This document shows positions 22,611-34,354 of a stretch of DNA of 64,000 nucleotides, piece by piece. Under the pieces are notes generated by a model. That model worked only from the letters and a program-made list of their open reading frames with translations. It searched no databases and had not been told where the DNA came from. The DNA is from Lumbricus terrestris. Its lineage: Eukaryota; Annelida; Clitellata; Crassiclitellata; Lumbricidae. Position 1 is the first letter of the stretch, and every line of letters begins with the position of its first letter. Made by a program: the position numbers and the translations under genes. The DNA is taken from the NCBI GenBank assembly GCA_949752735.1, contig OX457044.1, forward strand, positions 11,153,729 to 11,217,728, written 5' to 3'.

Positions 22611-22727
22611 GATGAAGAGAGAAGCAGCATCAATGATGATGACGACGACGACTACGACAACGACGACGACTCTATCGTCCGTCGCAACGAGCAGTGGCCA
22701 CACACTGATGACTACACTCAGCAGTTG
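22611..22727 (+). CDS. Novel gene, Thr-rich ectodomain exon (tentative)
   Basis: The acceptor is TAGCTATTGCAG and the donor is TTG|GTGAGT. The frame that fits the next exon (phase 2 in, phase 2 out) reads MMMTTTTTTTTTT and then LSSVATSSGHTLMTTLSS, a mucin-like composition. An alternative open frame would be Asp-rich but does not fit the downstream phase. Confidence 0.5.
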
Positions 22728-32700: not shown

Positions 32701-34354
32701 CGTTCAAAATATTATTATCAGTGTTTTTAGTATAATTTAGCGAAAGCGCGCGCTATAAAATCGGCCGCCTAAAGCGAAGTAAAGAAGTGATGACGTCATA
32801 AATCTATGGGTTCTTTGAAAGCGATCCGGCGACCAATCTTAAATACTGCATTATATTAGCTTTCGTCGGATTATTAAAAATTAAATGTTTCAAATTCGGC
32901 AAAGGTAAGATTTTTTGATCGCGAACCCCCCTATGTTTGTTAATGGGTCCTAAAAAGTATTTTTGTAAATATTGGGGAAAATCGGTCGGGCGGATAAGAA
33001 GAAAATTGTTCGCAAACATTGGAAAAGTTCGCCTTTATAGTTTTAGATTAATATTATAGGCCATGTACTTAAAATCATTGCACTTAAGAGTAGTAATATT
33101 GAAGGGGCGCTATATAAATTCAGTGATAAATGAATTGATGATGCTGTGGTAATAGTGACGTTTACGGTGAAGACGCTGTACATGGGTGGCTACGAGATCG
33201 AGTTTCCTCTGTCCGAGTTCCTACCAAAGATGAAGATCCTGCTGCAGGAGAAATACCCGACGGCCAACTGGTACGTGTCGAGCTGTAGGGACGAGGTGAA
33301 CCTCCCTGTGGCGAAGGTGAAGAGCAAGACGCAGTCGATACTCGTTCAGTTGGGAAACGCGAAGGTGAGGGAGAGGAAGATGTGGATCAATGGAGAGGCA
33401 GAGGTTCTGAAGCAGTGGATGGAAGAACTCAACCAGATGTACGTGACAGCCGCAGAATCAGTTAACAAGAAACCGTCTCCAGGTAATAATTCAATCCGTC
33501 CATCCTTCCATCTCGTCTTTCCAGTATTGTTCAACCAGCTTTAAATGTAAATGTAATCGCATATTTATATAGCGGCTGTGTTATGGCTTCGACCCTGAGG
33601 GTGAGATCCTTCACCACCGCTACTCCACGTTTATATTGCGACCGAGCCACCCGCAGTAAAGATCCGAGAAATTAATCTCTGATAAACCGACCGACCGGGA
33701 ATCGAACCCGGGCCACCGGCGCGGCGAGCGGGCTACCAACCCACTCGACCACCGAGGATCTCTTTAGCTTTAGCTTCTGTAACGATCGACTCCTTGTTGC
33801 CTTTAGACGTAGGCCTTCACCAGCATTTTTCCATAGATATTAGACGGCGGCTCTACGTTGATTCGACGCTCAACGCTGCGCATCTCCAAGACTCCAACAC
33901 CACCAACTTTATGTTTGAACCTCTTTACTAAATCACTGCTCGAATCCAGCTTAAGGTTTCAGTTGTTATCAGCCAGTCTTATTCCAACGTCTATAATTAT
34001 TATGCCTCTGTCACTGTCATTCGCCGACCCATCTCTGCCATCCCTCACCGTCTGCTACGGTCACTTGATCGTTTTGTCCCCCAATGCAAGGACTGCTATG
34101 GCTTCATATATTGTGCCTGTATCTTCATTGTGCCAATCACCCTTCAATCGGTTACTAAATGCCTCTACATTGAGTCATCCTTTGATATGAACCGTGTGCT
34201 TAGTTTCACCGTCTAAGAACACTCTTGTCTATCAAAGTGTCTCACTCGGGTATACTGCCTCTGATTGATAGGTAGGCCTACTTATAATAATGATGTCTTC
34301 AAAACAATAGAATAAAATACCTGTTGGTACTTTGCTTTGTATCTTTTAGACTAG
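22611..34354 (+). CDS. Unrecognised membrane protein: six-Cys ectodomain, one TM helix, three copies of a novel domain (5' end open)
   Basis: I do not recognise this gene. Exons were read from splice motifs: 22611-22727, 23880-23947, 24374-24590, 25184-25323, 26802-26876, 27598-27879, 28438-28812, 29927-29971, 33156-33482 and 34350 with TAG at 34352-34354. All nine junctions keep one frame, giving about 549 residues from the first exon found. Predicted layout: a Thr/Ser-rich then Ser/Pro-rich ectodomain, six cysteines (TKCDRP, IYCPMPF, NECCFQ, QRCCVP), a TM helix (WIVGISVVFFCCILAIVVI), a basic linker (LNKRRH), then three repeats of about 90 residues. Every junction from the TM exon onward is phase 1. 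The signal peptide exon was not found. It is a candidate type I adaptor or receptor. Exons 6, 7 and 9 are the surest and 1-2 the least sure. Confidence 0.68.
22737..22805. repeat. (CAGA)n microsatellite
   Basis: AGACAGACAGGC-type units directly after the donor of the preceding exon. Confidence 0.95.
22915..23340 (-). mobile_element. LINE 3'-end fragment
   Basis: The minus-strand translation LFVPPARTAFAQTRSSF followed by WTQISNQLTPTTRSSLF matches the C-terminal end of the reverse transcriptase. The 3' tail has GCGCTTTATAAATTTATAG. It lies in an intron of the novel gene. Confidence 0.65.
23505..23625 (-). mobile_element. GATTAC-tailed LINE group, 3' UTR fragment
   Basis: The plus-strand text AAGCCAAGCGCGGGGCACC and GGTGGTCCGGGTCGAG is the complement of the 3' region of the copy at 25960-26625. 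Confidence 0.6.
23690..23800. repeat. (AAGT)n microsatellite
   Basis: AAGTAAGTGAGT units grading into AAGCAAGC. Confidence 0.95.
23880..23947 (+). CDS. Novel gene, short ectodomain exon
   Basis: It has a strong pyrimidine-rich acceptor (TTCTCGCTTATTATTTTAG) and the donor CAAG|GTACAT. In phase it reads ENLFDAFDSSALSVANLS and then LWMQ, joining exactly to the next exon through a Gly codon. Confidence 0.55.
24200..24330 (+). mobile_element. LINE 3' tail fragment
   Basis: Contains GCTGAGAGCGCCTCTGAATAG, the family tail signature, just upstream of the Cys-rich exon. Confidence 0.5.
24374..24590 (+). CDS. Novel gene, Ser/Pro-rich and six-cysteine exon
   Basis: The acceptor is TTGTCTACTTAG and the donor is CCAAG|GTCAGC. 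It reads TKCDRPSGTSTSPTLAPH, a Ser/Pro stretch, then VVVIYCPMPFQPSTYNECC and FQSDKQRCCVPSSEP. Counting the first Cys there are six cysteines, in the spacing C, C-x11-CC-x7-CC, just before the TM exon. This resembles the Shisa/WBP1/VOPP1/CYYR1 class of six-Cys transmembrane adaptors. The His-rich open frame in the same stretch is an out-of-phase shadow. Confidence 0.65.
25184..25323 (+). CDS. Novel gene, transmembrane exon
   Basis: The acceptor is GGTGTTGTAG and the donor is AAAC|GTAAGT. It encodes GSSGNASMKW, a hydrophobic helix of about 22 residues (WIVGISVVFFCCILAIVVIA) and NKCTRLLWKSAPDAK. Positive charges after the helix suggest the C-terminal side is cytoplasmic. NAS is a possible N-glycosylation site on the outer side. 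Confidence 0.75.
25960..26625 (+). mobile_element. LINE 3' portion with GATTAC tail
   Basis: An open stretch encodes QPRYLRELFTIQP, SNRAISNSAPRLWNDLP and FHSKLKTLLFKNSYP, which is the C-terminal end of a reverse transcriptase. A 3' UTR with CTCGACCCGGACCACCA occurring twice follows, then a tail of GATTACGATTAC units. It lies in an intron of the novel gene and is 5' truncated. Confidence 0.75.
26802..26876 (+). CDS. Novel gene, basic juxtamembrane exon
   Basis: The acceptor is GCTGTGTAG and the donor is ACAG|GTAGAT. It reads RPKIHLNKRRHEILPVDK and RVILKT, with phase 1 at both ends. It links the TM helix to the first repeat. Confidence 0.6.
26885..27065. repeat. (CATCAT/CGTCGT)n trinucleotide repeat
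   Basis: About 180 bases of CAT and CGT units just after the donor at 26877. The Asp-rich open frame on the other strand is not a gene. Confidence 0.95.
27110..27500 (+). mobile_element. Two LINE 3' UTR fragments in tandem
   Basis: At 27175-27270 lies the GAGAGCGCCTCTGAATAG and GGCGCTATATAAAT tail. At 27290-27500 lies a diverged copy of the 3' UTR found at 26.39-26.62 kb (GCAGCACTCGTGAATAAGC). Both precede the first repeat exon. Confidence 0.55.
27598..27879 (+). CDS. Novel gene, domain repeat 1
   Basis: A phase 1-1 exon of 94 codons. Key stretches are NYTVEQSWDVITIKFYSRDF, YDHFKDSLIGHYPVLSCW, LEVTLLVNDDMRSLLVTDDG and LSWVMGDFQTVC. The suggested order of elements is strand, helix, three strands, helix. 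It has GC-rich codon use compared with the AT-rich introns around it, which supports coding selection. Confidence 0.8.
28438..28812 (+). CDS. Novel gene, domain repeat 2
   Basis: A phase 1-1 exon of 125 codons with acceptor CTCCTCTCCTCCAG and donor TCGT|GTAAGT. After a Pro/Ser linker (APSRPLSPRQPT) it reads GDYNVKVSQTQIEIKF, FDSFKRVLLGRYPSLPW, TVTVHMWEDIRSIWLSGDG and DWYGKEFQEIY, aligning with repeat 1 across its length. Confidence 0.85.
28965..29070 (-). mobile_element. LINE 3' fragment
   Basis: Shares ACCAATCAGAGGCGCTCCC and the GAGAGAAAA block with the copies at 5.63 and 22.92 kb. Confidence 0.45.
29205..29345 (-). mobile_element. GATTAC-tailed LINE 3' fragment
   Basis: The minus-strand end is a run of GATTAC units (plus strand AATCGTAATCGTAATC at 29206-29220) preceded by the same 3' UTR as at 26.4-26.6 kb. 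Confidence 0.65.
29927..29971 (+). CDS. Novel gene, linker exon
   Basis: A phase 1-1 exon of 45 bases with acceptor TTTTCTATTTACAG and donor GAAG|GTGAGC. It reads ANSIPNSSQGPANE, a polar linker between repeats 2 and 3. Confidence 0.65.
30055..30845 (+). mobile_element. LINE reverse-transcriptase fragment, best copy in the window
   Basis: A Jockey/CR1/L2-like C-terminal half with a few frame breaks. Blocks in order are RDLGVTLDSSLTFTEHIA, FHLRRLRAIRKSVSSS, IDYCNSVLIGLPKV, LQSVLNAAARLIARLP, QLHWLPLSVRIQFKVL, LRSSDRLDLFVPRVRTA and SLWNRLPPSVRS. The 3' end is GGGAGCGCTTCTGAAAGG ... CTAGAAGCGCGTTATAAATG with an AGATAAGATAAG tail. The two arms can form a terminal stem. Confidence 0.85.
31482..31872. 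mobile_element. hAT-type MITE family, copy 5
   Basis: A perfect 8-bp target duplication CGCCAAAC lies at 31474-31481 and 31873-31880. Terminal inverted repeats are CAGGGGCGGATCCAGG and CAAGGGTGGATACAGG. The interior has runs of C, GACTAAAAAAA and GGTCATCAGTTTTTTCGGC in tandem. It lies in the intron between the linker exon and repeat 3. Confidence 0.9.
32330..33047 (-). mobile_element. Non-autonomous Helitron, minus orientation
   Basis: The minus-strand 3' end has the hairpin CCCGGGCAACGCCGGGT, then AATTCAG and CTAG followed by T, the same end as the Helitron at 15.1 kb. A proposed 5' end is TCTAAAACTATAAAGG preceded by A near 33047. The 3' end is firm and the 5' end is tentative. Confidence 0.6.
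33156..33482 (+). CDS. Novel gene, domain repeat 3
   Basis: A phase 1-1 exon of 109 codons with donor CCAG|GTAATA and the weak acceptor GTGGTAATAG. It reads TFTVKTLYMGGYEIEFPL, FLPKMKILLQEKYPTANW, QSILVQLGNAKVRERKMW and LKQWMEELNQMYVTA. It is the most diverged of the three repeats but keeps the YP, the following Trp, the basic-aromatic strand and the final Trp helix. Confidence 0.8.
33545..33768 (-). mobile_element. tRNA-derived SINE
   Basis: On the minus strand the head has A box TGGTCGAGTGGG and B box GGTTCGATTCC inside a perfect T arm (CCGGG TTCGATT CCCGG). A body and an AT-rich 3' end with CGCTATATAAATATGCG follow. It differs from the SINE family in ARPC2. It is not a functional tRNA gene, as there is no clean acceptor stem or anticodon arm. 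Confidence 0.75.
33855..34265 (+). mobile_element. Degenerate LINE fragment
   Basis: Pieces such as SLDRF and ARTAMA in changing frames match the reverse-transcriptase C-terminal end. It lies between repeat 3 and the last exon of the novel gene. Confidence 0.45.
34350..34354 (+). CDS. Novel gene, last coding bases and stop
   Basis: The pyrimidine-rich acceptor TTTGCTTTGTATCTTTTAG is followed by AC TAG, which in phase 1 completes an Asp codon and terminates the protein at once. The rest of this exon would be 3' UTR. Confidence 0.6.

Follow-up and report, generated by a model that had tools for sequence, protein, structure and literature searches.

A 64,000-nucleotide stretch of the annelid Lumbricus terrestris genome, hereafter the window (assembly GCA_949752735.1, contig OX457044.1, positions 11,153,729 to 11,217,728 of the forward strand), encodes a protein that is predicted to cross the membrane once and has relatives in Capitella teleta and Lamellibrachia satsuma; in it, a domain of ∼90 residues is present in three diverged copies, termed here repeats A, B and C. 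The favoured reading, to which a probability of about one half is given, is that the repeats form three folded cytoplasmic beads, serving as a docking scaffold that is linked to a small cysteine-rich (Cys-rich) ectodomain. At slightly less than even odds, the repeats would constitute an undescribed animal domain family, arranged as an ancient triplicate at the inner end of a Shisa-like membrane protein and making up a new membrane-bound scaffold that arose in the annelid line. Conserved, and bearing a triplicated domain that goes unrecognised in Pfam, this membrane protein represents a gap in animal cell signalling that is open to testing.

Relatives were sought with a protein search reaching only sequences that share five-residue words within a length range; all those found are annelid, a scope from which absence outside annelids does not follow. 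Queried with 367 amino acids of the joined protein, the search returned one relative among 1008 candidates, C. teleta CAPTEDRAFT_227592 (P0001), which was again the sole relative among nine candidates with repeat B as query; profile A1 recovered this protein together with L. satsuma LSAT2_002739 (P0002) and the partial Capitella model CAPTEDRAFT_228956 (P0003) among 3638 candidates. All three are annotated as hypothetical proteins, and a literature search found no paper naming them and none combining three of the five features sought. The joined protein is colinear with P0002, at 40% identity across an alignment of 429 columns (expect value (E) 5e-108); its alignments to P0003 and P0001 extend over 245 columns (47%, E 2e-70) and 247 columns (42%, E 2e-60), respectively. 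The Lamellibrachia protein matches the window protein in the order of transmembrane (TM) helix, linker and the three repeats, but its model begins at the membrane helix, hence without an ectodomain, and has a longer C-terminus. Its last residues, PVESSV, fit a class I PDZ ligand motif, whereas PVEHTA, the last residues of P0001, do not. The Capitella models have the Cys-rich motif, helix, juxtamembrane linker and repeats in common with the window protein, but are split, P0003 comprising Cys-TM-A with linker toward B, and P0001 comprising B-C behind a doubtful N-terminus; the stretch MYQNFDRDYLSPDALKQWQTG occurs in both. The two share an N-terminal stretch and look like assembly-split pieces of one gene or two alleles.

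Assembly by splice signals and reading frame joins seven exons of the + strand into 486 residues with no stop (Table 1; all coordinates are positions in the window). The order of Cys-rich region, helix, basic linker, A, linker, B, linker and C is well supported by in-frame splice borders and by the colinear relatives. The count of ten exons in the original prediction was not confirmed; its three repeat exons lie exactly where it placed them, bordered by AG/GT, and two of the seven now assembled are additions. One of these, at 26802-26876, was found through comparison with the relatives; the other, at 29927-29971, is probably real, judged by splice signals and phase with no residue-level match to a relative, and is positioned where P0001 and P0002 carry a Ser-rich linker. 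The exon lengths of all three repeats are divisible by three, and third-position GC is 0.75-0.76 in the repeats vs an overall GC of 0.42 in the introns. The Cys-rich and TM exons join in frame and the relatives agree on their order, bearing out the ectodomain and single helix proposed ahead of the repeats; the proposed link from the TM exon to the repeats is likewise kept in public annelid gene models (TM-A-B-C in P0002, Cys-TM-A in P0003).

The Cys-rich exon matches residues 20-73 of P0003 (tblastn, E 2e-6), with the motif CPMPF[QE]PST[YF]..CC...RCC common to both. The 5′ low-complexity part of the exon is without counterpart in P0003; a (CAC CAT)n-type microsatellite at 24400-24500, within the exon, would add a Ser/Pro-rich ectodomain insert that is absent in P0003. 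The arrangement C..C..CC..CC precedes the helix in both proteins, the first window cysteine being set apart by the low-complexity insert and lying outside the BLAST alignment. One helix follows the Cys-rich domain, as in Shisa-like adaptors, according to a hydropathy scan and the relatives; its mean hydropathy is 2.97 over 21 residues, the best segment more than 25 residues away reaching 0.68, and tblastn matches its exon to P0002 at E 3e-4 and to P0003 at E 1e-6. Three further elements are common to the window, P0002 and P0003: the inner-face FN[KR]C[ST]; the juxtamembrane linker RPK[LI]...KR..LKTGNYTVEQSW; and the linker [ST]PR.PT.GEE[FI].D ahead of repeat B. Across 27 aligned residues, of which the final two fall beyond the exon, the juxtamembrane linker shows 56% identity to P0002 and 48% to P0003; it is basic in all three species. 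Basic residues flank the helix on its tail side, in keeping with the cytoplasmic tail first proposed, and we infer type I topology with cytoplasmic repeats. The linker LSPRQPTIGEEF ahead of repeat B matches P0003 at 12 of 14 residues; this segment (28473-28520), nearly unchanged in three species, is possibly a short binding or phosphorylation motif.

A putative type I topology and a conserved Cys-rich ectodomain adjoining the helix (CPMPF.PST...CC..RCC) would also suit a true ligand receptor, whose ectodomain binds a soluble ligand and whose repeats recruit signalling enzymes; this is considered quite unlikely, as the conserved ectodomain is short (∼50 residues in the P0003 alignment) and adaptor-like, and no Pfam kinase or death-type module is listed for the tail. 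Of the 'receptor or adaptor' originally suggested, it is the adaptor that we favour and infer.

That the three repeats are diverged copies of one unit, as had been claimed, is upheld. BLAST among the three window copies aligns A with B at 38% identity (93 columns, E 1e-17) and B with C at 21% (87 columns, E 0.003), and lists no match between A and C. Profile comparison with the annelid copies added gives probabilities of 98 for A-B and 97 for B-C, and only 51, over 36 columns, for A-C. A profile built from A and B scores Lamellibrachia C at 35.7 bits and Capitella C at 23.3 bits, where none of 3000 shuffles exceeds 9.9; the window C copy, at 10.5 bits, is scored barely above this limit, and its membership therefore rests on the relatives' C copies rather than on A and B alone. 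Run over the window reading frames, the same profile ranks an unrelated reverse-strand frame at 6775-6900 (E 0.056) above the C frame (E 0.1). The window C exon is itself matched by tblastn from P0002 (E 9e-12) and P0001 (E 5e-12).

Between species, identity among copies at corresponding positions is 43-58% for A, 55-72% for B and 32-36% for C, vs 14-37% for copies in different positions; the margin is narrow for C, whose three copies have best off-position identities of 28-30%. Window repeat A is 57% identical to Capitella A and 43% to Lamellibrachia A; repeat B, the best-conserved part of the protein, 72% and 55%; and repeat C, 32% and 34%. These identities place each repeat nearest to the copy in the corresponding position of the other worms, though by a narrow margin for C, and suggest an old triplication that predates the split of these worms.

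By eye, introns of the gene contain microsatellites and repeat elements and are full of transposon-like and microsatellite sequence. A further rival is that the repeats are captured fragments of a transposon open reading frame, or the joined gene an artefact of reading introns. This is scarcely credible, given exon borders in phase and colinear relatives in two other annelids, the latter contradicting transposon capture. In the 2266 reading frames of the window no further copy passed the inclusion threshold, and no close relative was confirmed with six P0001 peptide patterns, able to reach close relatives only, among viral contigs (two stretches matched) or prokaryote contigs (15 stretches matched).

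The repeats could not be assigned to a family at the outset, and searches with the nine copies (A, B and C from the window, Capitella and Lamellibrachia) agree. Pfam gave no significant match to any of the nine (best E 0.011, YmgD) or to the relatives, and sequence searches of the PDB, made with one, three or nine copies, gave none either (best E 0.1, KEOPS Pcc1, a fold that also appears, low, in the structure-match list). No significant match was found in NCBIfam for P0001, the one protein searched there (best E 0.06), in phage records searched with repeat B, or in Rfam; the viral structure library yielded none at E 0.001. Structure prediction, one of the checks proposed at the outset, returned a confident AlphaFold fold for repeat B, with a predicted local distance difference test score (pLDDT) of 91.1 and a predicted template modelling score (pTM) of 0.82. 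Folding used alignment A6, where repeat A is wrongly paired with the N-terminal part of P0001; alignment A5, with short pieces misplaced, was not used. The repeat B model resembles the TBP-like/KA1 class with modest structure-match scores, and each repeat is predicted to be ordered as strands-helix-strands-helix, as in that class, with disordered linkers between repeats. Polo-box similarity was considered and rejected: Plk1 is in the full-length Foldseek list, but with a root-mean-square deviation of ∼15-20 Å over the tandem.

KA1 domains recur among the structural matches of the repeats. The main rival explanation is that these are lipid-binding KA1-like modules on the inner leaflet, which by avidity keep the tail, or domains of the membrane, assembled rather than docking proteins. 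MARK KA1 domains bind acidic phospholipids, SAD-A requiring an added basic segment (PMC4686854, PMC11443572), and a basic juxtamembrane linker in all three species would fit such a role. This remains an unlikely reading, since KA1 is not detected by sequence profiles (no Pfam KA1 match listed for the nine copies at E up to 10), and the net charge of the nine copies, from -4 to +3, is near-neutral and not strongly basic overall, a whole-copy value that does not describe surface patches. Were the repeats KA1-like, they would show a kinase-tail fold put to use in tandem at the membrane with no kinase present. Also among the structural matches are TBP and, in entries titled as complexes with U6 small nuclear RNA, the METTL16 KA1 region, which would accord with a TBP-like nucleic-acid-binding unit cleaved from the membrane and acting in the nucleus; near-neutral charge speaks against this, and a shared fold proves no function, leaving it very improbable.

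Under the docking-scaffold reading, the small Cys-rich head would bind or sense a partner membrane protein outside the cell, and three rigid beads on flexible linkers would act as docking sites inside it. The conserved juxtamembrane cysteine of FN[KR]C may carry a lipid modification. Bead B, which is the best conserved, would be the principal docking site, and beads A and C would tune affinity or take other partners. The mode of action would be that proposed for Shisa-like adaptors, except that folded modules replace the proline-rich tail.

Neither of the gene ends first proposed was confirmed. A protein start at 22611, read by hand, was rejected: the segment is microsatellite text of 117 nt ending in phase 0, and the exon downstream needs phase 1. 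Scanning from ATG to donor gave no first-exon candidate under strict limits and four weak ones under loosened limits, the most hydrophobic of which is entered in Table 1; none is convincing as a source of a signal peptide, and the models of the relatives are truncated or doubtful at their N-termini. The proposed end at 34354 is a five-base exon, AC TAG, matched by none of the relatives; it is among 44 candidates listed by a terminal-exon scan, none of which stands out. Alternatively, the frame of exon C may run on past its donor until a stop.

Table 1. Exons and candidate end segments of the membrane-protein gene
Feature	Position	Strand	Remarks
Weak first-exon candidate, hydrophobic start	22167..22331	+	Ends in phase 0; phase 1 needed unless an exon intervenes
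Exon, predicted ectodomain, Cys-rich, CPMPFQPSTYNECC..RCC	24374..24590	+	Phase 1 to 2; AG/GT borders
Exon, single transmembrane helix IVGISVVFFCCILAIVVIATF and juxtamembrane FNKCT	25184..25323	+	Phase 2 to 1
Exon, basic juxtamembrane linker HRPKIHLNKRRHEILPVDKRVILKTG	26802..26876	+	75 nt, phase 1-1; AG/GT borders
Exon, repeat A	27598..27879	+	282 nt, phase 1-1; AG/GT borders
Exon, linker LSPRQPTIGEEF and repeat B	28438..28812	+	375 nt, phase 1-1; AG/GT borders
Probable exon, short linker SANSIPNSSQGPANE	29927..29971	+	45 nt, phase 1-1; good acceptor, donor gtgagc, frame
Exon, repeat C	33156..33482	+	327 nt, phase 1-1; AG/GT borders
Possible last coding bases AC TAG	34350..34354	+	Uncertain; acceptor score 14, best listed 16

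Several repeat elements were noted by eye in and around the gene. A dispersed element, with text like 'gaaagccaagcgcggggcacc', occurs in both orientations at 23500-23600, 26480-26590, 27400-27480 and 29230-29340, and is probably a local transposon family. Frames at 30047-30845 (+) resemble a decayed reverse transcriptase, that at 30177-30536 giving no Pfam match; a segment at 33680-33770 (-) resembles the promoter of a tRNA-derived short interspersed nuclear element, and ARAGORN found no tRNA in the window. Upstream, at ∼550-10080 (+), lies an ARPC2 gene encoding the Arp2/3 complex subunit P34-Arc, with a Pfam E of 2e-15 for one exon and the full exon set assigned by eye. Downstream, at 38228-42050 (-), are exons of a Ser/Thr protein kinase, presumably of MAP3K2/3 type, with Pfam Pkinase on three reading frames, one of them below the cut-off; a frame at 47159-47584, taken by eye for the PB1 part of the kinase, had no Pfam match. 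Long minisatellites, again identified by eye, lie within or near the kinase gene at 39640-39880, 45340-45860 and 48560-48860.

Two known systems invite comparison. KA1 domains, found in the MARK, SAD, AMPK and Chk1 kinases and in METTL16, have no sequence match to the window repeats, which are also unlike them in forming a tandem triplicate, in belonging to a predicted membrane protein without a kinase, and in their near-neutral net charge. Shisa proteins are built from a signal peptide, a Cys-rich domain, a single helix and a tail, the tail being rich in proline and carrying PY or PDZ motifs (PMC10531659); for the Shisa-like adaptors, six conserved cysteines are described at the N-terminus (PMC8621455). 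With E values up to 10 admitted, Pfam listed no Shisa family for P0001, P0002, P0003 or the N-terminal part of the window protein, and the [LP]PxY motif is found in none of the three relatives, for which reasons the window protein is not filed as a Shisa member. With Shisa and Shisa-like (FAM159) proteins it nonetheless has in common an N-terminal Cys-rich domain with CC pairs and one helix and, with Shisa-1 to -5, a cysteine near the inner membrane face; where the Shisa tail is proline-rich, that of the window protein consists of three predicted folded domains.

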